Source of the DNA: a virus
Reading direction: 5' to 3' (one strand)
Length of the DNA: 31,079 nt
Virus record (IMG/VR): IMGVR_UViG_3300045999_011248
Coordinates: 1-31,079 of that record
Shown here: one piece after another, positions 3,677 to 30,700 of the stretch
Layout: every line of letters starts with the position of its first letter
Position numbering within the stretch: position 1 is the first letter of the stretch
Translations under genes and position numbers: made by a program
Notes under the pieces: model-generated
What the model saw: only the letters and a program-made list of their open reading frames with translations
The model's database searches: none
What the model was told of the DNA's origin: nothing

Positions 3677-3882
3677 GACCGGGGATAGGTGGGTTCATCA
3701 ACGCTATGCACAGCAACGTTGCTGTTAACGCACTGAGCAACAACTCTCGCCGCAGCGACAGCTCGCTCGTATGTGACCCACGAGGATGCATCCTCCTTGG
3801 ATGCGGTGAGACCAATTCCTTGACCAGGGCCGTAAACCGCCGTAACCCAGCGATCCTCGACCATGACGACATAGCGCGTCAT
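3667..3882 (-). CDS. 71-residue hypothetical protein
   Basis: ATG 3882. A compact domain begins with strands (TRYVVMVEDRWVTAVYG), followed by a helix (TYERAVAAARVVAQCVN) and a final strand (VAVHSVDEP) ending in a YPRSW tail. A slightly longer frame covering the same DNA was rejected as a shadow. A 77-bp spacer upstream carries CTAGATT (minus strand, 3906-3912), 24 nt from the start, as a possible -10. The family is not recognised. Confidence 0.6.
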   Translation of the reverse strand: MTRYVVMVEDRWVTAVYGPGQGIGLTASKEDASSWVTYERAVAAARVVAQCVNSNVAVHSVDEPTYPRSWK

Positions 3883-3959
3883 TGCTCTTGAGTGACTACT
3901 GTGTGAATCTAGTGCTTTTACCTAGTCTGCGTTGGTATGTAGCGAAACACAACTGAGTC

Positions 3960-4235
3960 TCATGCGTCAGTTTCTGACACACCTCCTTCTTGCTTGGAGC
4001 GCATCCTTCCCTGCACCCGCCGTTGCACCGACTCCGCCCAAGCCGCCTTATCCGCAGCTTCCGCAGCCTTGTAATCCGACACTGGAACAGCCTTTTCCAA
4101 AGCGGCGTAAACCATATCCCGCAACATTCCAGTTACCCGCTTGCCCTCACTGGCTGCAAGCTGCTCAGCCAGTTTGTAGCGGTGGCTGTCGAGCAGCAGC
4201 TGGCAGTAAATTTTCGACCCGTGCTTCAGCGGCAT
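3960..4235 (-). CDS. Ribbon-helix-helix-like small DNA-binding protein
   Basis: A 91-residue protein from ATG 4235. A short strand (SKIYCQLLLD, 7-16) is followed by a helix (RYKLAEQLAASEG), a GKRVT turn and a second helix (MLRDMVYAALEKA). This spacing fits the ribbon-helix-helix fold. The C-terminal half is Ala/Glu/Arg-rich and ends RVQGRMRSKQ. RHH proteins bind operators as dimers through the strand, so this may regulate phage transcription, though the target is unknown. A TGCTACTGT box stands 23 nt upstream. The fold assignment comes from pattern only. Confidence 0.5.
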   Translation of the reverse strand: MPLKHGSKIYCQLLLDSHRYKLAEQLAASEGKRVTGMLRDMVYAALEKAVPVSDYKAAEAADKAAWAESVQRRVQGRMRSKQEGGVSETDA

Positions 4236-4257
4236 TGCTGCTTCTCTAGTCTGCTAC

Positions 4258-4266
4258 ACAGTAGCA
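4258..4266 (-). promoter_or_regulatory. TGCTACTGT extended -10 box
   Basis: On the minus strand TGCTACTGT ends 22 nt before ATG 4235. It sits in an inverted repeat, TGCTA-CACAG-TAGCA (4252-4266). The same TGCTACTGT occurs on the minus strand at 16019-16027 before another leftward unit. TACTGT also forms the -10 of the strong-looking promoter at 16511-16539. Confidence 0.4.
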
Positions 4267-4278
4267 TACTGCGACACA

Positions 4279-4494
4279 CTAGACGCGCCAGCGAACGTCC
4301 TCGTCCACGTCCCTGCGCCACGAGTTCGACTGCGCCAGCCTCGCCCCAGTCCTCTGCTGCCTGGAGCCCTTCCGCACCCGCCGCGCAAACTCCAAAAACG
4401 CGGCCATCCGATGCAAATCGCTGGTTTTGGCCAAGCGAATCTCCCGCATCAACCACTCCATCACCAGTTCGCGACCAGTACGCGGGAGACTCAT
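4279..4494 (-). CDS. 71-residue Arg-rich hypothetical protein
   Basis: ATG 4494 overlaps the previous stop by 4 nt. The product is helical and very Arg-rich (ELVMEWLMREIRLAKTSDL, then AAFLEFARRVRKGSRQQRTG, ending WRRDVDEDVRWRV). No motif is recognised. The overlap with its neighbour and codon pattern favour this frame over a 76-residue alternative on the same DNA. Confidence 0.45.
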   Translation of the reverse strand: MSLPRTGRELVMEWLMREIRLAKTSDLHRMAAFLEFARRVRKGSRQQRTGARLAQSNSWRRDVDEDVRWRV

Positions 4495-4673
4495 GCGTCC
4501 AACTCTGAGACTCGCAAGATCGACTGCACGTGCTGATCAGGACAAAGCTCCAGAGCCTTCATCCTCGCGGCAAAGGCATCTGGAGCAAGAAGAAACAGGT
4601 CGTGCGTACCACCATGACGCGGGTGCATCCGCACTCGGTATTCGTAATCCACAGCGACCTGCTTGGCACTCAC
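4491..4673 (-). CDS. 60-residue hypothetical protein
   Basis: Starts at GTG 4673 in a GTGA overlap with the stop of DNA polymerase, and ends in an ATGA overlap with the next gene. The central part HPRHGGTHDLFLLAPDAFAA is distinctive, with four His or charged residues before a hydrophobic strand. It is probably co-translated with polymerase. The family is unknown. Confidence 0.55.
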   Translation of the reverse strand: MSAKQVAVDYEYRVRMHPRHGGTHDLFLLAPDAFAARMKALELCPDQHVQSILRVSELDA

Positions 4674-6496
4674 TTTGCCTGATCCCAGCTATCTCCGACC
4701 TTAGCTTCGGCAAGCGGCGGAATCTCGCCCAACCACTTTGCTTCAGCTTCCTCCATTACAGATTGCAGCTGGAGCGCCCAAGCATCTGCGTGTTCTTTAG
4801 CGACGAGCAAGATAATCTCGTCATGCACCACGCCGGCCAAACGCACCACGTCCTCCCCGTCTGCGTGGAGCAACGGCCACAACTTGCCAAGCGTAAGTTT
4901 GAGGACTGCTGCGCCAGCTCCTTGGATTGGTGTATTACAGCGCGTGGTGAGTTTGTTGTTCTCGCCCGGTAAAAACCTCCGCAAGCCCGAGATGCGTATG
5001 CGGATAGATGGATTGTCCTTAGCCGCATCAGCAGCGCGAGCATTTGCGCGCTGCCATGCGGAGATGCCTTTATATGCAGCGTGGAACTTTTCCCGCACCT
5101 CCGCAGCCTCATCAAGATCCATCTGGATGCCTGTTGCTGCTGCGTAATTCCTAAGTCCCTTTGCACCACTTCCATATAGCAGTCCGAAGTTCGCGCTTTT
5201 ACTGACCTGGCGCTGTTCCTTTGTAACTTCATCCTCAGCGACCCCATAAATCTGCGTCGCCGTAATCGTATGCAGGTCCTTTCCCTGCTGGAACACCTGA
5301 GTCATAAGAGAATCCTTAGCTTCCGCCGCAGCCAGTCTCAATTCCATCTGCCCATAGTCAGCGACAACAAACTTGTACCCATCCGGCGCTTGTACACAAG
5401 CCCTAAAGCGCTGATCCCTCGGAATCTGCTGCAGATTGGGACTCATACAACTCATCCTTCCAGTATCAGCCCCCATTTGCATGTAGCTGGCACGAATAAA
5501 CCCATCATTCGCCAGATTCTTCAACAGCGTTTCAGCCATTTGCCGCTTCTTCTCTACTTTTTTCCACCGCAAATAATCAGCTACAACTTTGTGATCGCCC
5601 ACATACTCCTGTAGCGCCATCCGACTGGCACTCGGCTTCCCGTTTTTCGCATCAATCGGTGCCTCACCAAGCAACGCAGTGAACTTTTTCAGTAACTGCA
5701 CTGGACTATTGAGGTTAAACACAGCACCATCAAGCTTTTTACCTTTAGGTCCAGGCTTCGTTTGGTACAGCAACTTTCCATCAACACCACGGCAAAGTTT
5801 GTGGCCTTCAGGCAACGCAGAATCAAAGTCTTCAATAAACGTATCGCCAACTTCGTAATGCTCAATATCCAAATGCTCAATCAACTGCTTCAGGTCTTTT
5901 TCATTGAACGGCAACCCTGTCCTCCATAGTTGCGCCATCGCTGGCAACGCATTGCACTCCAAGTACCAAGCCGGGTACAAACTTGCCGTCGCCATTCGCT
6001 GCTGGATCTGCTCGTAAAGATCCAGCAGCACCAGCACATCTTTCGCGGCGTACTGAAGCTGGCTCTCAGTCAGATCGCCCGACCAGTCACTCTTCTGCTC
6101 CTCCTTGGAAATATCCTCGTGCAGGTAGCGCTTCACCAAATGCTGGAGACCGTGCTTCACGTTCGGCATCCCATTGGTGAGGATGCGACTGGCCAGCATG
6201 GTGCACAAAACCTTGCCCGCTGGATAAATTTCGTGTTCTTGGAGCCAGCCAAGATCAAAAACAGCATTGTGCGCCACCCACGTACGCTCCACGCTGAAAA
6301 ACTCCTCAACCTCGATCCAGTCGTTGTCATCCAAAGAAAAACAGTCGAGCACCACAGGCGGTTTGCCCGGAGCACCCAACTGCAATAACCGCATCCCGCC
6401 CATCTTCGGCTGGAGCTGCGTCGTCTCCGAGTCAAAAGCGATCAGCTTCTCATCAGCGAGCGTGTGAAGGTGCTCGATCCCTTGAAGGAAGTCCAA
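4670..6496 (-). CDS. polA: Family A DNA polymerase with 3'-5' exonuclease
   Basis: A 608-residue phage-type Pol I without the 5' nuclease. Exonuclease motifs: FDSET (Asp22, Glu24), AHNAVFD (76-81, Asp81) and YAAKDV (149-154, Asp153). Polymerase motifs: TGRMSC...NLQQIP (346-359), motif A VADYGQMELR (Asp380), motif B RQVSKSANFGLLYG (429-442, Lys433 and Phe437), motif C VHDE (557-560). All catalytic acids are present, so it should be the replicative polymerase with proofreading. The residue equivalent to E. coli 762 is Phe. The start is an uncommon TTG: there is no ATG or GTG between the upstream in-frame stop and the first exonuclease motif. Confidence 0.96.
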   Translation of the reverse strand: MDFLQGIEHLHTLADEKLIAFDSETTQLQPKMGGMRLLQLGAPGKPPVVLDCFSLDDNDWIEVEEFFSVERTWVAHNAVFDLGWLQEHEIYPAGKVLCTMLASRILTNGMPNVKHGLQHLVKRYLHEDISKEEQKSDWSGDLTESQLQYAAKDVLVLLDLYEQIQQRMATASLYPAWYLECNALPAMAQLWRTGLPFNEKDLKQLIEHLDIEHYEVGDTFIEDFDSALPEGHKLCRGVDGKLLYQTKPGPKGKKLDGAVFNLNSPVQLLKKFTALLGEAPIDAKNGKPSASRMALQEYVGDHKVVADYLRWKKVEKKRQMAETLLKNLANDGFIRASYMQMGADTGRMSCMSPNLQQIPRDQRFRACVQAPDGYKFVVADYGQMELRLAAAEAKDSLMTQVFQQGKDLHTITATQIYGVAEDEVTKEQRQVSKSANFGLLYGSGAKGLRNYAAATGIQMDLDEAAEVREKFHAAYKGISAWQRANARAADAAKDNPSIRIRISGLRRFLPGENNKLTTRCNTPIQGAGAAVLKLTLGKLWPLLHADGEDVVRLAGVVHDEIILLVAKEHADAWALQLQSVMEEAEAKWLGEIPPLAEAKVGDSWDQAK

Positions 6497-7457: not shown

Positions 7458-7696
7458 TTGTCCAGGTATGCCTCAGTGGCAAGCCTATTGATCAGCCGCG
7501 TGAGATACCAGTGGCACTTTCGCGCGTCTTCAAGGGCATCCTTTTTGAGCCACATCCGGCTGAGGTACTTGAGGCACTGCCACTGGAGCGAACCAGCAAC
7601 AGGATCCGGCGCATGTTGCGTCCAGTCCTCCAGCACCTCAATCACCTCGAACTTCCCGGCGGTGTAATGCCGGGGATGATGCACTGGATCGCTCAT
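7454..7696 (-). CDS. DUF3310 family protein
   Basis: An 80-residue protein from ATG 7696. It has the DUF3310 signature: an N-terminal HHPRHYTAGKFEVIEVLEDW (residues 6-25), a middle QCLKYLSRMWLKKDALEDARK and a final YLTRLINRL. The family is common in phage nucleotide and DNA metabolism clusters and has no firmly known activity. It sits between dCTP deaminase (4-nt overlap) and a membrane peptide. Confidence 0.85.
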   Translation of the reverse strand: MSDPVHHPRHYTAGKFEVIEVLEDWTQHAPDPVAGSLQWQCLKYLSRMWLKKDALEDARKCHWYLTRLINRLATEAYLDK

Positions 7697-8202
7697 CCCT
7701 TGGAACCTTGTACGGTTTTGTCGCCTTGGTACCTCCCAGTGTGGGAGTAGTCCTTAGCCGGCAGCATTGACATCCGATGAAACACGATCTGCGCAATCCG
7801 CATCCCAGGCCACAGAACAACCGGGTGCATGGAACGCGCGTTCTGTAGTTCCAGCGTTAGCCTTCCACAGTATCCAGGGTCTATGTACCCAGCAAGGAGA
7901 TGCTCAATCCCCTCCCTGGCCCGACTGGATTTGAGCGCCAGCTGCCCAGCAATACAGTCAGGCAGCTTGAACTCCTCGACCGTCTCCGCGAGCACGAACT
8001 CATGCGGCTGGAGCATGAACGGATTTTCTTGCGTGTGCCCAGCAATGGAAAAGGGCATCATCTGGGGCGTTGACGGCAATTCCACCAAGAGGTTCTCGCC
8101 GAGTCTCACGTCGAGACTCGCGGGATTCACCAGCTCAGGATCAAAAGGCGTCACCAAATCCCGCCGCACAAGCGACAAGATTTCCACGTCAGGCAAAATC
8201 AC
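7693..8202 (-). CDS. dcd: dCTP deaminase
   Basis: A 169-residue protein from GTG 8202 (GTGA overlap with the previous stop). It has trimeric dUTPase/dCTP-deaminase fold motifs: NPASLDVRLG (26-35), KSSRAREGIE (91-100), GYIDPGYCGRLTLELQNA (105-122) and PGMRIAQIVF (132-141), with a Gly/Tyr-rich end GRYQGD. Glu118 matches the catalytic Glu of dCTP deaminases (E138 in E. coli Dcd), which points to deaminase rather than plain dUTPase. It makes dUTP from dCTP to feed dTMP synthesis. Whether it also hydrolyses dUTP cannot be told from sequence. No thymidylate synthase gene is in the window. Confidence 0.9.
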   Translation of the reverse strand: MILPDVEILSLVRRDLVTPFDPELVNPASLDVRLGENLLVELPSTPQMMPFSIAGHTQENPFMLQPHEFVLAETVEEFKLPDCIAGQLALKSSRAREGIEHLLAGYIDPGYCGRLTLELQNARSMHPVVLWPGMRIAQIVFHRMSMLPAKDYSHTGRYQGDKTVQGSKG

Positions 8203-8600
8203 GCTGCAACCTCAGCAGTGTCCTGCTGGAGCTGCACGTGCTTCCAGGTCTTATTCCACTTGATGCAGTTGATGGTGGTGGGGTGCACGCCAAACTCCTT
8301 AGCGATCTTGCCCACCGACTTGCCACCAGCAGCCAGCTGGCGCTTGATTTCCAGCACCTTCACGTCGGTCAACACCGCCACCCCACGCTTGCCCTTGCGG
8401 CTGGACTTACGAGTCTTACTTTGAGACTGGCGTACGGCTTTGGTACGTACGATCTGCTCACCAGCGGGCAGCGGGATGGCCTGCTTGGGATTGGTCAGAT
8501 CCAGCTCAACGTGCTGGCAAGTACCAAGAGCAAAGCGAGCAGCATCAAGAGCCTTGATGACCTGATCAAACTGAGCTTCAGAAAGGATGTACATGTTCAT
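8199..8600 (-). CDS. HTH DNA-binding protein
   Basis: A 133-residue protein from ATG 8600; a longer in-frame start at 8822 overlapping the RlpA-like gene was rejected. Residues 60-72 form a very basic linker (KTRKSSRKGKRG). Residues 78-118 form a resolvase/Hin-type helix-turn-helix (VKVLEIKRQLAAGGKSVGKI, then AKEFGVHPTTINCIKWNKTW). The N-terminal 55 residues are an unknown small domain. It heads the dCTP deaminase-DUF3310-zinc protein run with its own promoter, so it may regulate it. That role is inference. Confidence 0.65.
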   Translation of the reverse strand: MNMYILSEAQFDQVIKALDAARFALGTCQHVELDLTNPKQAIPLPAGEQIVRTKAVRQSQSKTRKSSRKGKRGVAVLTDVKVLEIKRQLAAGGKSVGKIAKEFGVHPTTINCIKWNKTWKHVQLQQDTAEVAA

Positions 8601-8616
8601 AAGGTGGAACGTGTGC

Positions 8617-8647
8617 AGTGTAGTAGGCAAGAGCAGGGGTATGTCAA
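8617..8647 (-). promoter_or_regulatory. Candidate promoter for the HTH gene
   Basis: Reading leftward, TTGACA (8647-8642) overlaps the stop codon of the RlpA-like gene. TACACT (8622-8617) follows after 19 nt, or ACTACA after 17 nt. The distance from TACACT to the start codon is 16 nt, giving a very short leader. It would let the HTH gene and those downstream be read separately from the upstream genes. Confidence 0.35.
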
Positions 8648-8973
8648 TAGCTAATCCGAACAGTTGCTGTTCCATCAAGCGGAACACCCAAACGATGTGC
8701 CGCACCAGCAGAAAGATCAATGCTGCCGCAATCGCAGCGATCCGTAATGGGCACCACGACTGACCGCCCTTGGTGCGATACACGCACTTTGGTGCCACAA
8801 GGCAACCAAGGATGCGCTGCACTCAATCCCCAATGGCGATACACACTTCCGCAATACGCCACCTCTCCGTGATATTCCGGGTGATAGACGGTTGCGGTAA
8901 CTTCCCGGCCTGTGTGATGTGCCAGTGCTGGCCCGTTAAAAACAAGTGCTGCAGCAAGTAAACAGCGCTTCAT
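8644..8973 (-). CDS. RlpA-like double-psi beta-barrel protein, exported
   Basis: A 109-residue protein from ATG 8973. A signal peptide (MKRCLLAAALVFNGPALA, cleavage near residue 18) is followed by one double-psi beta-barrel domain. This has SAAHPWLPCGTKVRV (51-65), VVVPITDRC (72-80) and SIDLSAGAAHRLG (84-96). His54 and Asp78/Asp86 align with conserved RlpA residues; RlpA is a lytic transglycosylase of septal peptidoglycan. It lacks the SPOR domain of cellular RlpA, and four Cys could form disulfides in the periplasm. In a DNA-metabolism operon this is odd. It may act on the host cell wall during infection or at lysis. Confidence 0.8.
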   Translation of the reverse strand: MKRCLLAAALVFNGPALAHHTGREVTATVYHPEYHGEVAYCGSVYRHWGLSAAHPWLPCGTKVRVSHQGRSVVVPITDRCDCGSIDLSAGAAHRLGVPLDGTATVRISY

Positions 8974-10615: not shown

Positions 10616-10956
10616 ACGGGCACTCCCAGCTCCTCGGGCTTGTACTGGGTCAGCACGCACACGTCGGCGCCCTGCCTGAGCGCCGTGCCCACCACGTAGT
10701 GGAACTGATCTTGGGCGTCCTTGGACTCCTCGATCTTGTACTCCTCCACCTCGTAGGCCATGCCCCTGCGATACCAGGAGACACGCACCACCGCCAGCAG
10801 CTCGAACGGAATGTCCCCGACGGTGTAACCCAGCGTGGGCTTCCTGGGGCGCTTCGGTTGGGGCGGTTCAGGCTTAGCCACGGGATCTCTCCAAAACAGC
10901 CAGGCGGCGACCCGCACTAGCCCTAGAAAAAAGTTAGGCGTGGTGAACATGCCCAT
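10612..10956 (-). CDS. 114-residue protein with N-terminal hydrophobic segment
   Basis: Starts at ATG 10956 (TGATG with the helicase stop); ATG 10950 is an alternative. A hydrophobic stretch (FFLGLVRVAAWLFW, residues 9-22) may anchor it in the membrane. A Pro/Lys linker (KPEPPQPKRPRKP) follows, then a beta-rich domain (LLAVVRVSWYRRGMAYEVEE, then HYVVGTALRQGADVCVLTQY). It is possibly a membrane-tethered replication accessory protein, judging only by its place next to the helicase. The family is unknown. Confidence 0.55.
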   Translation of the reverse strand: MGMFTTPNFFLGLVRVAAWLFWRDPVAKPEPPQPKRPRKPTLGYTVGDIPFELLAVVRVSWYRRGMAYEVEEYKIEESKDAQDQFHYVVGTALRQGADVCVLTQYKPEELGVPV

Positions 10957-13370
10957 CAGTCCCAGAGCCGTGCGGCTTCCTGCATCAGTTGCGCCAGCTC
11001 CTCTGGCGACCGTTCTTCCCTTGGGGATACCTCCAAAACCTGTCCAACTGGGGCAGATCCATTGGTATCACTGGAAAGAGCAGCTGGACAGGGGGTAGGG
11101 GTGTCCAGCTGTGTGTCCAACTGCTGGTTCGACAGCTGGACACAGCTGGACACGTCCGAGGGTTGTCCAGCTGTACTTTCCAGTCCCTGACTGGGTTTTG
11201 CCCCAGTTGGACAACTATTTATAGGCTTTTCACGCGAGACCACAGCTTGGTACGCAGGCATAGGAGAACCACCCCCCTTACTGGGACGTTCTTCAGCCAC
11301 CCAAATCAAGCCACGAGACACCAAGCGCTGGGTCGCCTTACGAATTCCGGCCACGCTGCCACCACACAGCGGATCGGCAGCAAGCTCGGATCGGGTGACT
11401 GAGCGCGGATAAGCCGCCCGGACGCGCTGGAGCACCCGATCCACCACCGAAGCGGGATTTCCCGTTTCCGCAGCATCCTCCACGTAGTCCATCAGGGAGA
11501 ACGTCAGGTCGCTCTCCAGCTTCATCAGCAGCTTGGAGCCATCCCGCCCTGCCCTGGACTTCTCCACGGTGATCAAACGGGCATTGGAGCCGGTCTGCTC
11601 TACCTGCTTCTTATCGGGCCGCCTAAGCCCCCACACCTCATCTACGGCGTCCCTGATGGCCGTGGAGCCCCGGAACCCACCGGTCTTGTTGGCGTGGTGG
11701 ATCAGCAGGATTGTGCAGGCCGGGAAGGTCCTCCCGTTGTTGTTCGCCAGCCAGTAGATCGGACTCGCAAATTCCTTCTTGTTTTCGTCGAACGCCGAGC
11801 CCCTGCTGCAACCCGTGATCGAGTCGATGATCACCAGCTTCGGCTGGTGCTTCTCGATCAACTTGACGAAGCGGTAGTACCAGTTCAAATCCCACCCCAT
11901 CACCACCGTCACCGGATCCGACGACTGGAACTCCAAATCCCGCAGCTGCTGCTGGACCTGCACCTCGCTCTGATCACCGTTAAGGATCAACACCGATCCC
12001 TGCTGCACTGGCACAAGGTCACCCCGCACCGAGAACGGAATCCCGCGAGCAACGTGCTTGGCGATAGTCCAAGCCGACATGGATTTGCCATCACCACCAG
12101 CGCCGTGGATCATCACGGTGCCTGGGCAGGGCAGCAAATCCGGGATGAGGTACTCAAACTTCAAATCCTTCTCCAGCAGGCGACTCATAGCCATCTCATC
12201 GTCCTGCTGCTCGAACTGCATCTGGGCGATCAGCAACCGCTCCAGCGCTCCAGCGTCACGGTATCCAGCCTCCAGCGCCAGCACGTTCATGGCGTGCGCC
12301 GCCTCAGCCGGGTTCTGAATCTGCTGGATCTCCTTCGCCCGCCGAATCACCTCGGCATAGGTGATGACGACCTGCCGAATGCGGGTGACGTTATCGCCCT
12401 CAGCAGTTTCAACAACCTTCCGCAGATCCTCCGAAAGCCACAGCCGCCCTGGCATCTGCTGGTCCGCCATCCAGAACAGCGTCCCAAGGCTCACCGGCCC
12501 CTTCCGAAAGGACTTCCAAACCTCCTCACAAGGATTGCCGTCCGCCCAATCCTGTGAAAATTCGGGGTCTTCCGCAGACCAAGCCGACCAAAGCGTCAAA
12601 CCAAGGTCAGTCGGCAACTCCGAGTGGATCGCCATCCCTACCTTCACCCAGTGATCCCGGCTGCCGCTGCCCTGCCCCGGAATCACCATCAACGCCGACT
12701 GGATAATCTCAGCCACCTCAGCTGGATCTCGATCCGAGAAATCCAGCGCCTTGCGGTTCTTAATGAAGCCGCCATCCTGCACATCTTTCCCTGCGGCATC
12801 CCGCATCTCCGCCAGCAGCCACTCAGGAGCCTCAGGAATGGCCTCCAAGTCGCCCTCAAAGCCGTACTGCCCTGCCGGAGCCTTCCCATCACTAGAGCCC
12901 GGATAAGCCCCGTAGAGCACCCCCTGACGGCCCCAGAGCACCTCATACCCAGCGCCGGTATCGCTCAGGCCAAAACCCTTCACCGAGGCCCACAGAGCCT
13001 CTGGAACGCGAAACAGGTACTTGGCCGCATTGGCTTTGGTCGACGTGATGACTGGAGCACCCTCCAGCGACTCACCCCACTTCTTTTTGAGACGACTGAG
13101 ATTGCGATCCACATCAAGGATCACAAGCCCCCCACTTCGAGCACCCGTAAACGCCCCCACCGCCTGGAACACCTCAGGCTTGCGGTCGATCTGGAGCGCC
13201 ACATCCGACGGCGCCATCACGGTGTGGTGACTGCGCTCTAGCGGCGTCTTGCCCTTTGAAATTTTCCCGGACTGGATCGCTTGCCCCTTGGCATAGATCG
13301 GCGCATACGCAATCCCGACAGGCAGCTGGCGCACAAAAGCCAGCAGCTCCTGCGTCTTACCTTGAGACAT
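10956..13370 (-). CDS. Primase-polymerase / RepA-type helicase fusion
   Basis: An 804-residue protein from ATG 13370. Residues about 10-190 resemble the prim-pol domain: SGGLVILDVD (79-88) supplies two Asp ligands, followed by an YEVLWGRQGVLYGAYPG strand region. The usual His motif reads NAAKYLF, with Lys117 in its place. Residues about 215-310 look like a PriCT-type domain. Residues about 405-630 are a RepA-like hexameric helicase: Walker A GAGGDGKS (423-430), Walker B KLVIIDS (511-517), then LLIHHANKTGGFRGSTAIRD. A winged-helix-like region (640-700) and a low-complexity tail follow. It should prime and unwind the phage origin. The tail DNA carries the iteron array. Confidence 0.85.
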   Translation of the reverse strand: MSQGKTQELLAFVRQLPVGIAYAPIYAKGQAIQSGKISKGKTPLERSHHTVMAPSDVALQIDRKPEVFQAVGAFTGARSGGLVILDVDRNLSRLKKKWGESLEGAPVITSTKANAAKYLFRVPEALWASVKGFGLSDTGAGYEVLWGRQGVLYGAYPGSSDGKAPAGQYGFEGDLEAIPEAPEWLLAEMRDAAGKDVQDGGFIKNRKALDFSDRDPAEVAEIIQSALMVIPGQGSGSRDHWVKVGMAIHSELPTDLGLTLWSAWSAEDPEFSQDWADGNPCEEVWKSFRKGPVSLGTLFWMADQQMPGRLWLSEDLRKVVETAEGDNVTRIRQVVITYAEVIRRAKEIQQIQNPAEAAHAMNVLALEAGYRDAGALERLLIAQMQFEQQDDEMAMSRLLEKDLKFEYLIPDLLPCPGTVMIHGAGGDGKSMSAWTIAKHVARGIPFSVRGDLVPVQQGSVLILNGDQSEVQVQQQLRDLEFQSSDPVTVVMGWDLNWYYRFVKLIEKHQPKLVIIDSITGCSRGSAFDENKKEFASPIYWLANNNGRTFPACTILLIHHANKTGGFRGSTAIRDAVDEVWGLRRPDKKQVEQTGSNARLITVEKSRAGRDGSKLLMKLESDLTFSLMDYVEDAAETGNPASVVDRVLQRVRAAYPRSVTRSELAADPLCGGSVAGIRKATQRLVSRGLIWVAEERPSKGGGSPMPAYQAVVSREKPINSCPTGAKPSQGLESTAGQPSDVSSCVQLSNQQLDTQLDTPTPCPAALSSDTNGSAPVGQVLEVSPREERSPEELAQLMQEAARLWD
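11041..11213. repeat. Eight TGTCCARCTG iterons, candidate replication origin
   Basis: TGTCCA(A/G)CTG occurs forward at 11041, 11102, 11114 and 11164, and inverted at 11081, 11133, 11143 and 11204: eight exact copies in 173 bp. The array is bounded by a perfect 15-bp inverted repeat, TGTCCAACTGGGGCA (11041-11055) and its complement (11199-11213). Copies 11101-11152 can also fold into a long imperfect hairpin. The repeats fall in all reading frames of the primase-helicase tail, so selection acts on DNA. Iterons inside an initiator gene recall the lambda O/ori arrangement. Origin function is inference. Confidence 0.65.
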
Positions 13371-17698: not shown

Positions 17699-17737
17699 CT
17701 ACTGTCACACACTGTAACATTACAGAATGTTACAGTA
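17699..17737. promoter_or_regulatory. TGTAACAT inverted-repeat operator
   Basis: CTGTAACAT (17712-17720) and ATGTTACAG (17727-17735) form a perfect 9-bp inverted repeat with a 6-bp spacer. Just upstream, CTACTGTCACAC (17699-17710) is the exact reverse complement of the 12-mer at 16060-16071. TGTNACA half-sites recur at 18386-18405. This looks like a dimeric HTH operator. The HTH protein encoded just downstream (17835-18191) is an obvious candidate binder. Confidence 0.5.
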
Positions 17738-17741
17738 TCAG

Positions 17742-17767
17742 CCGGGGCTCACTACCCCGGTTTTTTT
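17742..17767 (+). terminator. Strong intrinsic terminator
   Basis: CCGGGG (17742-17747), 7-nt loop, CCCCGG (17755-17760), then seven T (17761-17767). It ends the small-terminase unit. Confidence 0.92.
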
Positions 17768-17768
17768 G

Positions 17769-17777
17769 TGCTACACT
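17769..17777 (+). promoter_or_regulatory. TGCTACACT extended -10 box
   Basis: TG-C-TACACT begins 2 nt after the terminator T-run, 57 nt before ATG 17835. The -35 position is within the terminator stem, so activity would depend on the extended -10 or an activator. Confidence 0.35.
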
Positions 17778-17834
17778 ACATGTGTGAGCGCAGCAGTGAA
17801 CGCGCCACACCCACTACCCACACCACGGGAACAA

Positions 17835-18191
17835 ATGAACTACCCCACCACCGCCCAAGTCTCTGCCCAGCTGGAGCAGTACGCCCGCACTATCGCCCCA
17901 GCCGTTGCCTTCTGTATCACGCTAGTGGTTCATACGTACTGGCTCGGCTATCGGCTCGGCCGGCTAGTACACAGTACTAATGACTGGCTGGCGCAGCACT
18001 GGCCAACGCGCCCCCAGCCTGCACAGAATGTAACATTAGCAGAGGTTATCACCGAGACTAAGACTGTTGTACTAGTCGACGACGTGGTCGCACTGCGCGC
18101 GCAGGGCCTGACGCAGCGTGCCATAGCGGAGCGCCTAGGCGTGTCCCGCACGACCGTACGGCGTCGCCTGGCCGCTAGCGGCCAATCATGA
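17835..18191 (+). CDS. Membrane-anchored helix-turn-helix protein
   Basis: A 118-residue protein from ATG 17835. Residues 19-38 are a hydrophobic segment (TIAPAVAFCITLVVHTYWLG) followed by a basic, Tyr-containing turn. Residues 45-75 are a Pro/Gln-rich linker. Residues 84-114 are a helix-turn-helix (VALRAQGLTQRAIAERLGVS, then RTTVRRRLAAS) of the HTH_23/resolvase type. One protein thus has a membrane anchor and a DNA-binding end. It is flanked by TGTNACA operators and terminators, as an autoregulated unit might be. It may sense membrane state or tether DNA. Function is unproven. Confidence 0.65.
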   Translation: MNYPTTAQVSAQLEQYARTIAPAVAFCITLVVHTYWLGYRLGRLVHSTNDWLAQHWPTRPQPAQNVTLAEVITETKTVVLVDDVVALRAQGLTQRAIAERLGVSRTTVRRRLAASGQS

Positions 18192-20683: not shown

Positions 20684-22117
20684 GTGGTCTACAGCGCCAA
20701 CATCCCCCCAACTGGAGCTGTAGTCAGCGAATCCCCCTTCGTCCGCAGCCTCGACGTCATCGCAATGATGTCCGACTGGAGCGTGATGGCTGCCGTCACC
20801 AAGGGCACAAGTTACCTCCGAGATATGAGCGAGACATATCTCCCACAGGAACCCCGTGAAGACGACGACGCCTACCAAACCCGCGTCGACCGCAGCGTCC
20901 TCAGCCCTTACACCAGCCGCCTAATCGAAACCGCCGCTGGCGCCATCCTGCGTAAACCCATCCACATCGAAGGCGACCCCTACTGGCTGGAACTCGCACA
21001 AAACATCGACGGCATCGGCTCCAACATCAACGAATACGCCCGCCGCGCACTGGTCAGCAGCCTCACCTATGGCCACAGCGCGATTTTGGTGGACTATCCC
21101 GCAGCAATGGGAGCGCGAAATCTTGCTGAGGAACGCGCCCAAGGCCGCCGCCCCTACTTCGTCCACATCGACGCCCCCCAAATCTGGGGCTGGCGCAAAG
21201 AATCCACAACCAACCGCCTCCTCCAAGTCCGAATCCACGACTACAACGTCCGCCCTGTAAACGAATTTGGCGAAGAACAGATCGAGGAGATGCGCGTCAT
21301 CTACCCCGGCCGCTACGACCTCTACACCTTGGGCCAAGAACTCGTCGAGTTCACCGCAACCGGCGGCTACAGCCTCGACGAAATCCCCCTAGTCCCCATC
21401 TATAGCAACCGCCGCGGCGTCTTGGTCTCCCAGCCCCCACTGCTGGACATTGCCAACCTCAACATCACCCACTACCAACGTCAAGCCGACCTAATCCACG
21501 CCCTCCACATCGCTGCCATGCCCACCCTCGTCTTAGAGGGCTGGGACGACACGACTGGTTCAGCAACGATGGGCGTCAACTACGCCATCGCCATGCAACC
21601 GGGCAACAAGGCGTACTACGTCCAATCCGACGCCACCAGCTTCGACGCCCAAATGCAAGAACTCCAATCCTTGGAGGGCCAAATGTCCACGCTGGGCGTC
21701 ACGAAGCTTTTTGGCCAGAAGTTTGTCGCCGAGTCTGCCGAGGCCAAGCGCATCGACCAAGCCCAAAGCAACAGCGTCCTCTCCATCATCAGCCAAGAAC
21801 TGGAAAGCGCCCTCAACCAAGCCTTCGCTTTTGCCGCCCAATACGTCGGCATCGAACCTCCCGAAATCACTATTGACCGCGACTTCGACTACTACCGCCT
21901 GATCGGCCAAGACGTCTCCGTCCTAACACAACTCAACCAAATGGGCAAAATTAGCGACGCCATGTTGTTGGAAGTCCTCCGCCGTGGCGAAGTTCTTCCT
22001 GACAACATCAACATCGAAGACGAAATGGAAGCCGCCGGTCATTCTGCTATTGAAATAGCCGAACCAGCCGAAACCGCCGAAGAACCCGATTCCCCCGAAG
22101 AATCCCCCGAGTCTTAA
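20684..22117 (+). CDS. Portal protein (DUF4055 family)
   Basis: A 477-residue protein from GTG 20684, fixed by an AGGAG 7 nt upstream. Characteristic of DUF4055 portals: RVDRSVLSPYTSRLIETAAG (67-86), AILRKP (87-92), NIDGIGSNINEYAR (107-120) and TYGHSAILVDYP. A long helical region (about 330-400) with VAESAEAKRIDQAQSNSVLS is the clip/wing-type helix part. The C-terminus is Glu/Pro-rich and probably disordered. Portals form the 12-subunit ring for DNA entry and tail attachment. Its place after terminase and before scaffold and capsid supports the call. Confidence 0.88.
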   Translation: MVYSANIPPTGAVVSESPFVRSLDVIAMMSDWSVMAAVTKGTSYLRDMSETYLPQEPREDDDAYQTRVDRSVLSPYTSRLIETAAGAILRKPIHIEGDPYWLELAQNIDGIGSNINEYARRALVSSLTYGHSAILVDYPAAMGARNLAEERAQGRRPYFVHIDAPQIWGWRKESTTNRLLQVRIHDYNVRPVNEFGEEQIEEMRVIYPGRYDLYTLGQELVEFTATGGYSLDEIPLVPIYSNRRGVLVSQPPLLDIANLNITHYQRQADLIHALHIAAMPTLVLEGWDDTTGSATMGVNYAIAMQPGNKAYYVQSDATSFDAQMQELQSLEGQMSTLGVTKLFGQKFVAESAEAKRIDQAQSNSVLSIISQELESALNQAFAFAAQYVGIEPPEITIDRDFDYYRLIGQDVSVLTQLNQMGKISDAMLLEVLRRGEVLPDNINIEDEMEAAGHSAIEIAEPAETAEEPDSPEESPES

Positions 22118-27986: not shown

Positions 27987-28012
27987 GAAGTACCAGAGTG
28001 TGACGTATTACC

Positions 28013-30700
28013 GTGGCCACCTACAAAGCTGATATTGAAATCGGCGTAAGAGGTGCCCAACAGTTACAAGCTTTACGTAAACAAATTGACGTATTATCTA
28101 CTGGAATTGATAGTGTAAATAACAAACTTAAAGGGGGCGCCCAAAGTATCGATGCATATAATGCAAATTTAGCTAAAGCAGCAGCAACTTTAGCCAAAGT
28201 AAACACAGGCACTTTAGGTGAAATCGATGCAGTACGCCAATACGTACAAGCACTGGGTCAAGCTAACAGTGCTAGAGATAGACAAAACAGGCTTATACAA
28301 GAGCAAATTACACTACAACGCAAAGCTGTCGCTACAGCTAATGCAGGTTTTGGTGTGCAAGGTCCTGCTTTGCCCCCTACTAGACGTGGACCAACATCAC
28401 CTATTGGTGGCGCACTAAACATACCGGGATCTCCAGCTGCTGTTGCTGCCTCAAATCGCCGACAAAATGAAGCGTTAAGTAATGCAGTTATTGGTGGTGC
28501 GTTTCCTTTGTTGTTTGGGCAAGGTCTCGGAGCTGCTATTGGCGGAGGTGTCGGTGGAGCAGCTGGTGGTTTAATGGGCGGTCAGTTCGGCTTCGGTCTT
28601 TCACTTGTTGGGACAGCTATCGGTCAAGCTTTTGATACTGCCACGCAGTCAGCAAAAGATTTTACAAAAGCACTTAAAGATACTGGGGACGCATCGCTAG
28701 CTTTAGAGGCCGCTTTAGGTAGTGTGGATAAAAACACAAAGACGTTAATTGAAAATTTAGCAAAATCTGGTCAGAAAGCAGCAGCTACTCAAGCTTCATT
28801 TGAAGCTTTGTCTTTACAGATAGGCTACGAAAATGCTGAAGCTTTTGTGCGTGCTGGCGAAGCTGCTAGCCAGTGGGGCACAAATCTTCAAACTTGGCTT
28901 ACTAAATTATATGCTCAAGCAGTACGTTTAGGTGAGGCTATTAAAAACAATTTTCCTACAGGGCCAGGTATCCAGCAAACTTCAGTATTTGATATTGTTG
29001 AAGCACAGCCTCAACAACCAATAACACAAGAAGCTCAGGACAGGTTAGAAAATTTAGCAGGCCAAAATAGTTTACTAGAAAAACAAGTAGCTTTATCTCG
29101 TCTTACAGCCGACGCATCAATCGATCAACGCTTGCAGTTGGAGCGCCAAGTAGCACTCCAAGATTACGTTAATGAAGCTGTGCAGCTAGAACAACAACTT
29201 AAACAAAAGCTTCTATCCCAACAAGAATACAACTTACGTCTTAAAAGCGCCGAACTGTCTTTTACAAAAGAGATATTTGCACTGGAGAATACTGCGCAAC
29301 AAGCGCGGCAACGTAAAGCCGAAGAAGCTCGACGTGCAGCCGAGAAAGCGCGCCGTGAAGCCGAGCAAGCTGCTCAAAAACAACTGCAGACTCTGAATAA
29401 TATTCGTAGTCTACAAATTTCACTAACACAACAAGCACTAGAAGGTGCTGACATTGACGTTGATCGTGCTAAAGCAGTAGACGGAGAAATAAGCGCTTTG
29501 AAAGAATCTCTTTCTCAACTGCAAGCACGTCTTAATTTAGACGCACGAATTTTAGATATCCAATTAGAACGGCAACTTTCAGCCCAAGATATTACAGACC
29601 AAGAGCGTGTGCTTTATGAGTCTATTTACAAACAACAACGAGTTAATCTTGAAGCGCAATACCAAATTAAAGCTCGCACCCAGCAACTGGATATAGCCAG
29701 ACTTCAAACAGCCCGGCAAATCTTGTTTGCCGAAAAAGCTCGAGCTGTACAAGACATCAGACAACAAAGAGGCACACAACTTGCCGGTCTACAGGCCGAG
29801 CTGGCATTCCCGTTCGGTGGCGCTGGTCTTGATGTAGTAAACCAACAACTGGAGCAGCAAGCACGCCGGTACGAGACACTTGTACCTTTACAGAGAGAAC
29901 TACAAAATTTAGAAACAGAACGCGCTAACGTAGCGGCATCTGCTTCAGCGGAGGAACTGCAAGATCTTAACGAACGTATTTCGGGTAAAATTGCCCAAAT
30001 TGAACTTGAAGGACAATACCTTAATCAGCTAGACGCAACAGAAAAAGCTCTGCTCCGTCAACAACAAATCTACGCAAAGTACGGCTTTATTGCTGATGAA
30101 GTTTCCCGCGCTCTAAATGACTCCATCACAGGGTTGATTACTGGCACAACAACTGTCGCAGAGGCCTTCAGTCGCATGTTTGAAAACATCGGCAAGGCTT
30201 TTATTGATATGGCTACGCAAATGCTGGCGCAAAAGCTGTTTATGACAGTGCTCGGTGCACTGATTCCTGGCGGCAGTTCGATTGTTCAAGGTGTAGATGT
30301 ACCCGTAAGTCAAATGCCTGCTGGCATGGCTTTTGCGGAGGGCGGTTTTGTTACCGGACCTACTCGCGCACTTATCGGCGAAGGTGGGGAGCCAGAGTAC
30401 GTCATCCCCGCCAGCAAAATGCGTTCCGCGATGGGTCGTTATGCCGCCGGCGCCCGTGGTTCCAGCGTTATTACCAGCACCGGCACCGAATCCGGAGCAG
30501 GTCAGGGCGGTGTCACCACAATGGAACCGATCGACGTGCGCTACAGCGTGGAACGCATCAACAATGTGGACTACGTTACGACTGCCCAGTTCCAAGCCGG
30601 CATGGCGCAAGCTGCTCAACAAGGCGCGATTCAAGGCGAACGTCGCGCGTTGCGTAGCTTAAAAACCAGCGCCGCAGCCCGTAGGAGCGTCGGAGTCTGA
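28013..30700 (+). CDS. Tail tape measure protein
   Basis: An 895-residue protein from GTG 28013. The N-terminus (1-100) is helical with a typical QQLQALRKQIDVLSTGIDSV. Residues 158-206 are a long Gly/Ala hydrophobic part (FPLLFGQGLGAAIGGGVGGA) that can insert in membranes. Residues about 340-690 are Gln/Glu/Arg-rich coiled coil (RKAEEARRAAEKARREAEQA). Near the C-terminus, TGPTRALIGEGGEPEYVIPA is a common tape-measure motif. Length sets tail length, about 130 nm by the usual 1.5 angstrom per residue rule. Much of the gene is visibly more A/T-rich than its neighbours. Confidence 0.92.
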   Translation: MATYKADIEIGVRGAQQLQALRKQIDVLSTGIDSVNNKLKGGAQSIDAYNANLAKAAATLAKVNTGTLGEIDAVRQYVQALGQANSARDRQNRLIQEQITLQRKAVATANAGFGVQGPALPPTRRGPTSPIGGALNIPGSPAAVAASNRRQNEALSNAVIGGAFPLLFGQGLGAAIGGGVGGAAGGLMGGQFGFGLSLVGTAIGQAFDTATQSAKDFTKALKDTGDASLALEAALGSVDKNTKTLIENLAKSGQKAAATQASFEALSLQIGYENAEAFVRAGEAASQWGTNLQTWLTKLYAQAVRLGEAIKNNFPTGPGIQQTSVFDIVEAQPQQPITQEAQDRLENLAGQNSLLEKQVALSRLTADASIDQRLQLERQVALQDYVNEAVQLEQQLKQKLLSQQEYNLRLKSAELSFTKEIFALENTAQQARQRKAEEARRAAEKARREAEQAAQKQLQTLNNIRSLQISLTQQALEGADIDVDRAKAVDGEISALKESLSQLQARLNLDARILDIQLERQLSAQDITDQERVLYESIYKQQRVNLEAQYQIKARTQQLDIARLQTARQILFAEKARAVQDIRQQRGTQLAGLQAELAFPFGGAGLDVVNQQLEQQARRYETLVPLQRELQNLETERANVAASASAEELQDLNERISGKIAQIELEGQYLNQLDATEKALLRQQQIYAKYGFIADEVSRALNDSITGLITGTTTVAEAFSRMFENIGKAFIDMATQMLAQKLFMTVLGALIPGGSSIVQGVDVPVSQMPAGMAFAEGGFVTGPTRALIGEGGEPEYVIPASKMRSAMGRYAAGARGSSVITSTGTESGAGQGGVTTMEPIDVRYSVERINNVDYVTTAQFQAGMAQAAQQGAIQGERRALRSLKTSAAARRSVGV

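Follow-up and report, generated by a model that had tools for sequence, protein, structure and literature searches.

A dyad-symmetric iteron array, and probable replication origin, inside a phage primase-helicase gene

The 3' end of a phage primase-helicase gene carries an array of short repeats that we consider very probably to be iterons bound by the winged helix encoded in the same gene, the array most likely being the phage replication origin. This reading comes from sequence comparison, from which we infer that the protein physically binds the array, that the origin fires there, that the helicase is loaded, and what drove the diversification described below. The window, by which we mean the whole 31,079-nucleotide stretch of DNA that was analysed (IMG/VR virus record IMGVR_UViG_3300045999_011248), is part of a phage genome, and its genes include those for terminase, portal, capsid, tape measure, DNA polymerase A, exonuclease and endolysin.

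The array and the gene that contains it

The initial annotation had reported eight exact 10-bp copies of TGTCCARCTG, four forward and four inverted, within 173 bp (11041-11213), framed by a perfect 15-bp inverted repeat. Exact-copy search located all eight (starts and strands 11041+, 11081-, 11102+, 11114+, 11133-, 11143-, 11164+ and 11204-), and the frame is TGTCCAACTGGGGCA at 11041-11055, which pairs with its reverse complement at 11199-11213 and reaches 20 nt at 90% identity. There are no exact copies outside the array in the whole 31,079-base record, and first-order Markov surrogates of the window give a chance expectation of 0.23 copies on average and 2 at most. The array is in fact more regular than that annotation described, being a 173-bp dyad of four nested site pairs with start spacings of 40, 21, a variable centre, 21 and 40. 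The features of the array and of its gene are as follows, the iterons being placed by exact-copy search.

10956-13370 (-): primase-helicase gene, 804 aa, with the array in its 3' end (ORF; Pfam PriCT_2 and AAA_25; PHROG)
12465-12701 (-): PriCT-2 domain, residues 224-302 (Pfam PF08707, E 4.4e-15)
11679-12161 (-): RecA-like AAA_25, helicase-type ATPase, residues 404-564 (Pfam PF13481, E 6.8e-19)
11244-11447 (-): winged helix-turn-helix, residues 642-709, predicted binder of the array (AlphaFold models, generic fold matches, half-site covariation)
11340-11342 (-): Arg677 codon, recognition helix; tracks site bases 6-7 in relatives (covariation)
11262-11276 (-): wing, residues 699-703, where 702 goes with site bases 8-9 in relatives (covariation, AlphaFold model)
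11016-11234 (-): codons of the predicted disordered linker, residues 713-785, which bear the array (pLDDT about 30)
10962-11006 (-): conserved C-terminal helix, residues 789-803 (AlphaFold model)
11041-11213 (no strand): dyad-symmetric iteron array, probable replication origin (copies and inverted repeats; framework kept in 99 relatives)
11041-11050 (+): iteron TGTCCAACTG, outer pair
11081-11090 (-): iteron TGTCCAGCTG
11102-11111 (+): iteron TGTCCAGCTG
11114-11123 (+): iteron TGTCCAACTG
11133-11142 (-): iteron TGTCCAGCTG
11143-11152 (-): iteron TGTCCAGCTG
11164-11173 (+): iteron TGTCCAGCTG
11204-11213 (-): iteron TGTCCAACTG, outer pair
11070-11074 (+): second conserved element, ACTGG, in one 40-bp gap (common and constant in relatives' gaps)
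11180-11184 (-): ACTGG, inverted mirror copy (same basis)
11214-11235 (no strand): slightly AT-rich patch adjoining the outer iteron, possible unwinding site (family mean AT; weak)

The N-terminal 200 residues of the protein are a putative primase on the strength of PHROG matches (DNA primase, residues 45-290), with no Pfam Prim-Pol hit, and BLASTP found no similarity to the S-2L PrimPol. The full protein has no relatives of solved structure by sequence. Its winged helix is weak by sequence; by fold (mean pLDDT 75) it matches generic winged helices, many of which are transcription regulators, and a specific winged-helix family name could not be assigned from such generic matches, the absence of P4 alpha and RepA_N from the match lists being uninformative. 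In the AlphaFold models the recognition helix spans residues 673-686 and the wing lies between strands 689-695 and 704-709; the winged helix is followed by the disordered stretch 713-785, which is the part encoded by the array, and then by the C-terminal helix 789-803. The repeats had been proposed to exist for the DNA and not for the protein, and this held, as the copies use all three reading phases and both strands and the tail that they encode is predicted to be disordered; a cause of the repeats at the protein level is thus ruled out. Because the array encodes a disordered linker, its DNA sites should be free to change at little cost to the protein. The gene's neighbours encode an SSB-like protein, an exonuclease, a dCTP deaminase and DNA polymerase A, and the region is therefore a replication module.

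Conservation and concerted change of the sites in relatives

Six IMG/VR scans gave 411 sequences with the window, repeats of the same contigs included. Many of these contigs are fragments; the gene's end is present in 394 of the 411, and these represent 206 distinct tails. TGTCC and its complement GGACA were counted at -330 to -60 from the stop codon, and the counts are bimodal, with 4-13 cores in 141 of the 206 distinct tails and 0-1 in the other 65. Class A (99 loci) has the window's mirror-symmetric 40/21-bp framework at fixed distances from the stop codon, and most of its members have ACTGG symmetrically in both 40-bp gaps (left gap 72/84, right gap 66/84), constant and without covariation. 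In class B (34 loci), four or five forward copies at 10-bp spacing are followed by four or five inverted ones, and class B arrays have only the core and base 6 in common. AT content rises modestly beside the outer iteron (family mean 0.49-0.52 vs 0.43 mean), a weak signal.

The 65 tails without a TGTCC array form one clade in which the helicase and winged-helix half of the gene has been exchanged. Several of them have another repeat at the array position: eight GACTTTTCCGA-like copies in L205, L348 and L349, TTTGTCAAAAG in L355-L360, and GGTTTATACA in other contigs. A k-mer test at 0.05 was passed by only 11 of the 65, and for most of the clade another repeat is no more than suggested. L205:1339-3846, set against window 10956-13370, has a nearly identical N-terminal (primase) half and differs in its helicase/winged-helix half and in iteron type, and this is a module exchange within the gene. 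A search for the same array at the same place in related genomes had been suggested as a check of the origin, and the array is indeed kept in 141 of the 206; relatives that have the gene and no iterons were to count against it, which does not apply to those 141, the remaining 65 being the exchanged-half clade, several members of which have a different repeat.

The class A site consists of a constant core, TGTCC, and bases 6-10, which switch jointly in all copies of one locus. Identity at these five bases is.82/.69/.70/.71/.56 within loci and.48/.31/.39/.49/.31 between loci, and the half-site types include AGCTG/AACTG (the window), CACTG, CACCT, CCCCT, CGG.., T-rich, CATTG and AGTGG. Exact sites of each locus's own type number 499 in the arrays vs 6 in the 695 kb outside them (reversed-pattern control, 5), and in six related 40-47 kb contigs the densest cluster of cores is the array. 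Several copies of a short site are thus clustered once, with conserved spacing, as is usual for an iteron origin. Two types can occur in one sample (CACTG in L002 and T-rich in L023 in sample 3300010354; T-rich in L020 and CACCT in L032 in 3300042554), and several types per sample are what the idea of replication compatibility, discussed below, needs.

None of 50,697 phage records yielded a homologue over the greater part of the protein, and the family appears to be uncultured. The search for cultured relatives gave nothing beyond partial ATPase matches (S-CBS4, 29% identity over 26% of its length), no prophage or host relatives were present among 84,980 prokaryote genomes scanned, and a search of open papers brought up no reports of this phage group. 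The group is widespread and comes from water. The window's portal (20684-22117) is closest to those of the cyanophages KBS-S-2A, S-H1 and S-2L, at about 36%, and such portal matches hint at cyanobacterial hosts. Elsewhere in the window, the endolysin (1848-2978) combines glucosaminidase and C39-like peptidase domains, a dCTP deaminase-like gene (7693-8202) lies beside the replication genes, and the first part of the tape-measure gene (28001-30000) has a GC content of 0.44, vs mostly 0.50-0.63 in the rest of the window.

Covariation of the half-sites with the winged helix

The half-site distance between loci was tested against the protein, given the backbone distance (residues 1-620). The partial correlation is about zero for residues 1-645 and for the 360 bases downstream of the gene, and it peaks at 0.46 at residues 667-678 (recognition helix) and at 0.36 at residues 691-702 (wing). 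The highest single columns are residues 677 (0.524), 702 (0.504) and 701 (0.452), against a background with mean -0.003, sd 0.062 and a maximum of 0.233; columns from about 719 on, being encoded by the array, were left out of this reading. A partial Mantel test gave 0.486, with a null maximum of 0.101; the permutation nulls used here take loci or clusters as independent. When loci are collapsed into clusters, at 75% as at 85% identity, bases 6 and 7, and not 8-10, can be predicted from residue 677. The strongest residue-base combinations are 677/base 7 (z 7.6), 702/base 8 (z 6.5) and 672/base 6 (z 6.0), the maximum of the background of 710 residue-by-base tests being z 4.3. At 85% clustering Arg677 goes with A at base 7 in 17/18 clusters, and Lys677 goes with C at base 6 and C or G at base 7 in 12/12. 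The window has Arg677 with AGCTG and falls in a mostly Thr677 cluster, off the majority rule that Arg677 = CA, and because of this departure the code must be context-dependent. The recognition helix thus appears to pair with the bases near the core and the wing with the outer bases, which is the order expected for a winged helix lying along the site. The initial annotation had suggested that the host protein may bind the array through its winged-helix-like part, and this residue-level covariation strengthens the suggestion, the array probably being bound by the winged helix of that same protein.

Between the window and L005, protein identity is 98-100% over residues 5-620 and drops to 54% in the winged helix core and 44% in the tail encoded by the array; their half-sites differ, and their DNA is about 96% identical on both sides of this cassette, including just past the stop codon. 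L003/L013 and L012/L061 show the same cassette-limited divergence. The winged helix and the array therefore look like one exchangeable cassette with many specificities, as judged from these comparisons. Such exchange raises the question of whether the covariation is mere linkage, neighbouring winged-helix codons and array being swapped together without contact, since only about 30-200 bp separate the two, and they diverge together. Residues 613-645 and the DNA immediately downstream are equally close and show no correlation, so linkage alone is rejected; within the domain, moreover, the signal sits in the recognition helix and the wing, whose positions each go with particular site bases, and it persists between clusters below 75-85% identity. 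We regard linkage as the most improbable of the alternatives considered here.

Proposed origin function, alternatives and known systems

An array bound by the winged helix might have a regulatory role (control by the protein of its own gene or operon, control of copy number, or a roadblock) and not that of firing an origin. Iterons often double as control elements, as is established for iteron plasmids, and many of the fold matches of this winged helix are transcription regulators; the array also lies inside an operon. Against this, the array lies at the gene's far 3' end, with about 2.2 kb between it and the gene start, the domain that would bind it is part of a primase-helicase, and no further sites are present in the genome pieces examined, so that a purely regulatory array is unlikely. 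It is more doubtful still that another protein, a host factor or another HTH protein of the phage, binds the array for packaging, partition or transcription. The phage does have further HTH-like proteins (8199-8822 and 17727-18191), and TGTCC arrays lie near terminase genes in some unrelated phages, but the specificity shifts track the winged helix of the primase-helicase itself, and a second binder is unnecessary.

The 173 bp could also be recognised by shape, as a long hairpin or cruciform, in the way that has been proposed for pRN1, which has a similar protein and a stem-loop origin 3' of its replication gene (PMC4234260). The initial annotation had noted that copies 11101-11152 can extrude a long hairpin, and on paper such folding is possible: 14-bp arms are present at 11101-11114 and 11140-11153, the whole 173 nt can be folded as one nested stem (-59.3 kcal/mol, z -11.9), and a class B array can be folded likewise (z -7.4). 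No Rfam match to a known RNA element was found in the array. Mirror partners resemble each other barely more than other opposite pairs do (0.787 vs 0.760, a weak excess), and the covariation excess of mirror copies is 0.43-0.46 at bases 6-10, 0.04-0.12 at bases 11-20 and absent beyond, so that the covariation along the whole stem that would mark an origin of the pRN1 type is not seen, being near zero past site bases 6-10. Because the covariation of mirror copies ends at the site edges, the hairpin is probably not the conserved function. Same-strand copies switch jointly too, and the half-sites covary with the winged helix; protein sites arranged in a dyad fit the covariation and the constant ACTGG better than a selected stem does, and a structure-dependent origin seems to us improbable.

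We return to the preferred reading, an origin whose iterons are bound by the gene's own winged helix. A change of GC skew had been named as a further check; in six related 40-47 kb contigs there is no skew extremum at the array, and skew gives the origin no support. By the proposed mechanism each site would comprise the constant core TGTCC and a 5-bp specificity half, and the winged helices of several protein copies would load on the mirror-symmetric sites. The recognition helix would contact the core and bases 6-7, and the wing would contact bases 8-9. Helicase and primase, being attached, would so be placed on the DNA, leading to DNA opening and primed synthesis. The diversification might be caused by avoided interference between co-infecting relatives, or by origin-directed parasites or nucleases.

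In phage lambda the ori iterons lie inside the O initiator gene and are bound by O, and the Stx phages are built likewise (PMC4488673, PMC7466680). The likeness to lambda ori pointed out in the initial annotation fits this organisation, an array inside the gene of its likely binder, the binder being indicated here by covariation. The lambda origin has four to six 19-bp iterons and a 40-bp AT-rich tract, whereas the window has 10-bp sites in a long dyad, and O recruits the helicase through P, whereas here a single protein has both the helicase and the primase domains. There is no O-family match, the full protein giving Pfam PriCT_2 and AAA_25 only. Extra copies of its own origin block lambda infection (PMC4488673), and this could be a reason for relatives to diverge. 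In the staphylococcal plasmid pSK41, the boxes bound by the winged helix lie within its own rep gene, the protein segment that the origin encodes is a linker that can be dispensed with, ahead of a C-terminal part, and divergent types are compatible (PMC5703833). The predicted flexible linker encoded by the array (713-785), between the winged helix and a C-terminal element (789-803), has the same layout. The pSK41 winged helix is, however, N-terminal and of the RepA_N family, with a C-terminus that recruits host primase, whereas the window's is at the end of a primase-helicase, and neither the full protein nor a domain alignment gave a RepA_N match.

The alpha protein of phage P4 combines primase and helicase with a winged helix at its C-terminus, which binds the origin repeats (PMC4234260), a design of domains also present here (the primase part by PHROG). 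The P4 alpha primase is of the Toprim type (PMC4234260), whereas the window's protein has PriCT_2 and a RecA-like AAA_25 in place of the Toprim/SF3 arrangement. The two proteins belong to different sequence families. The P4 alpha repeats are not known to lie in the coding end of its gene. ORF904 of the archaeal plasmid pRN1 is likewise a single protein with primase and helicase parts and a winged helix at its C-terminus, with the origin 3' of the gene (PMC4234260). The fused design and the position of the origin on the gene's 3' side resemble the window, but the pRN1 origin is a stem-loop without iterons, lies downstream of the gene and goes with an SF3 helicase, unlike the in-gene iterons described here. 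In the PLE satellite, the RepA DNA-binding domain and the iterons covary and are swapped as a module, and only cognate pairs replicate (PMC8263062); PLE origin specificity was swapped under attack by the origin-directed nuclease Odn (PMC8263062). The PLE origin is non-coding and apart from repA, with few types known, whereas this family has a probable in-gene origin of many types.

Similar TGTCC arrays are found in unrelated phages. L432:5914-5948 is a 10-bp-spaced array that starts about 50 bp past a Prim-Pol and AAA_25 gene (3832-5862), and near-identical arrays are present in the unrelated L434, L441, L468, L482, L485, L492, L528, L530 and L536. Tandem arrays lie about 0.6-0.75 kb past D5-type primase-helicase genes (L438:9095-9129 and L473:10560-10594), inside a Phage_rep_org_N/HTH_36 (replisome-organiser) gene (L481:3956-3990), in an ORF with a weak DnaT match (L500:1927-1961), and by terminase small subunit, portal or sigma-like genes (L442:2163-2197, L435:2322-2356, L443:3028-3062 and L458:1419-1453). 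The TGTCC tandem array was rejected as a universal mark of origins, since homologues make up only 20 of 120 hits and some arrays lie by terminase or portal genes; because of the latter, the support from unrelated phages for an origin is only partial, and TGTCC arrays may have other roles too.

We tentatively suggest, as a possibility that we put at somewhat under even, that the winged helix and the in-gene origin form a replication-compatibility cassette under diversifying selection, whose mutually exclusive specificities, swapped by recombination, would prevent interference from co-infecting relatives, origin-borrowing satellites or origin-directed nucleases. If this is true, the family contains a natural code for DNA recognition by a winged helix, in which bases 6-7 are read by residue 677 of the recognition helix and bases 8-9 by the wing. 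A few model elements are known to have in-gene origins, and here one would have been kept across many environmental phages despite repeated change of specificity, in step with a few residues of the protein encoded around it. The family would thus be a natural data set of an initiator and an origin that switch specificity without loss of function and a source of a testable residue-to-base rule for a winged helix, and replication compatibility may be a diversifying trait in phages.
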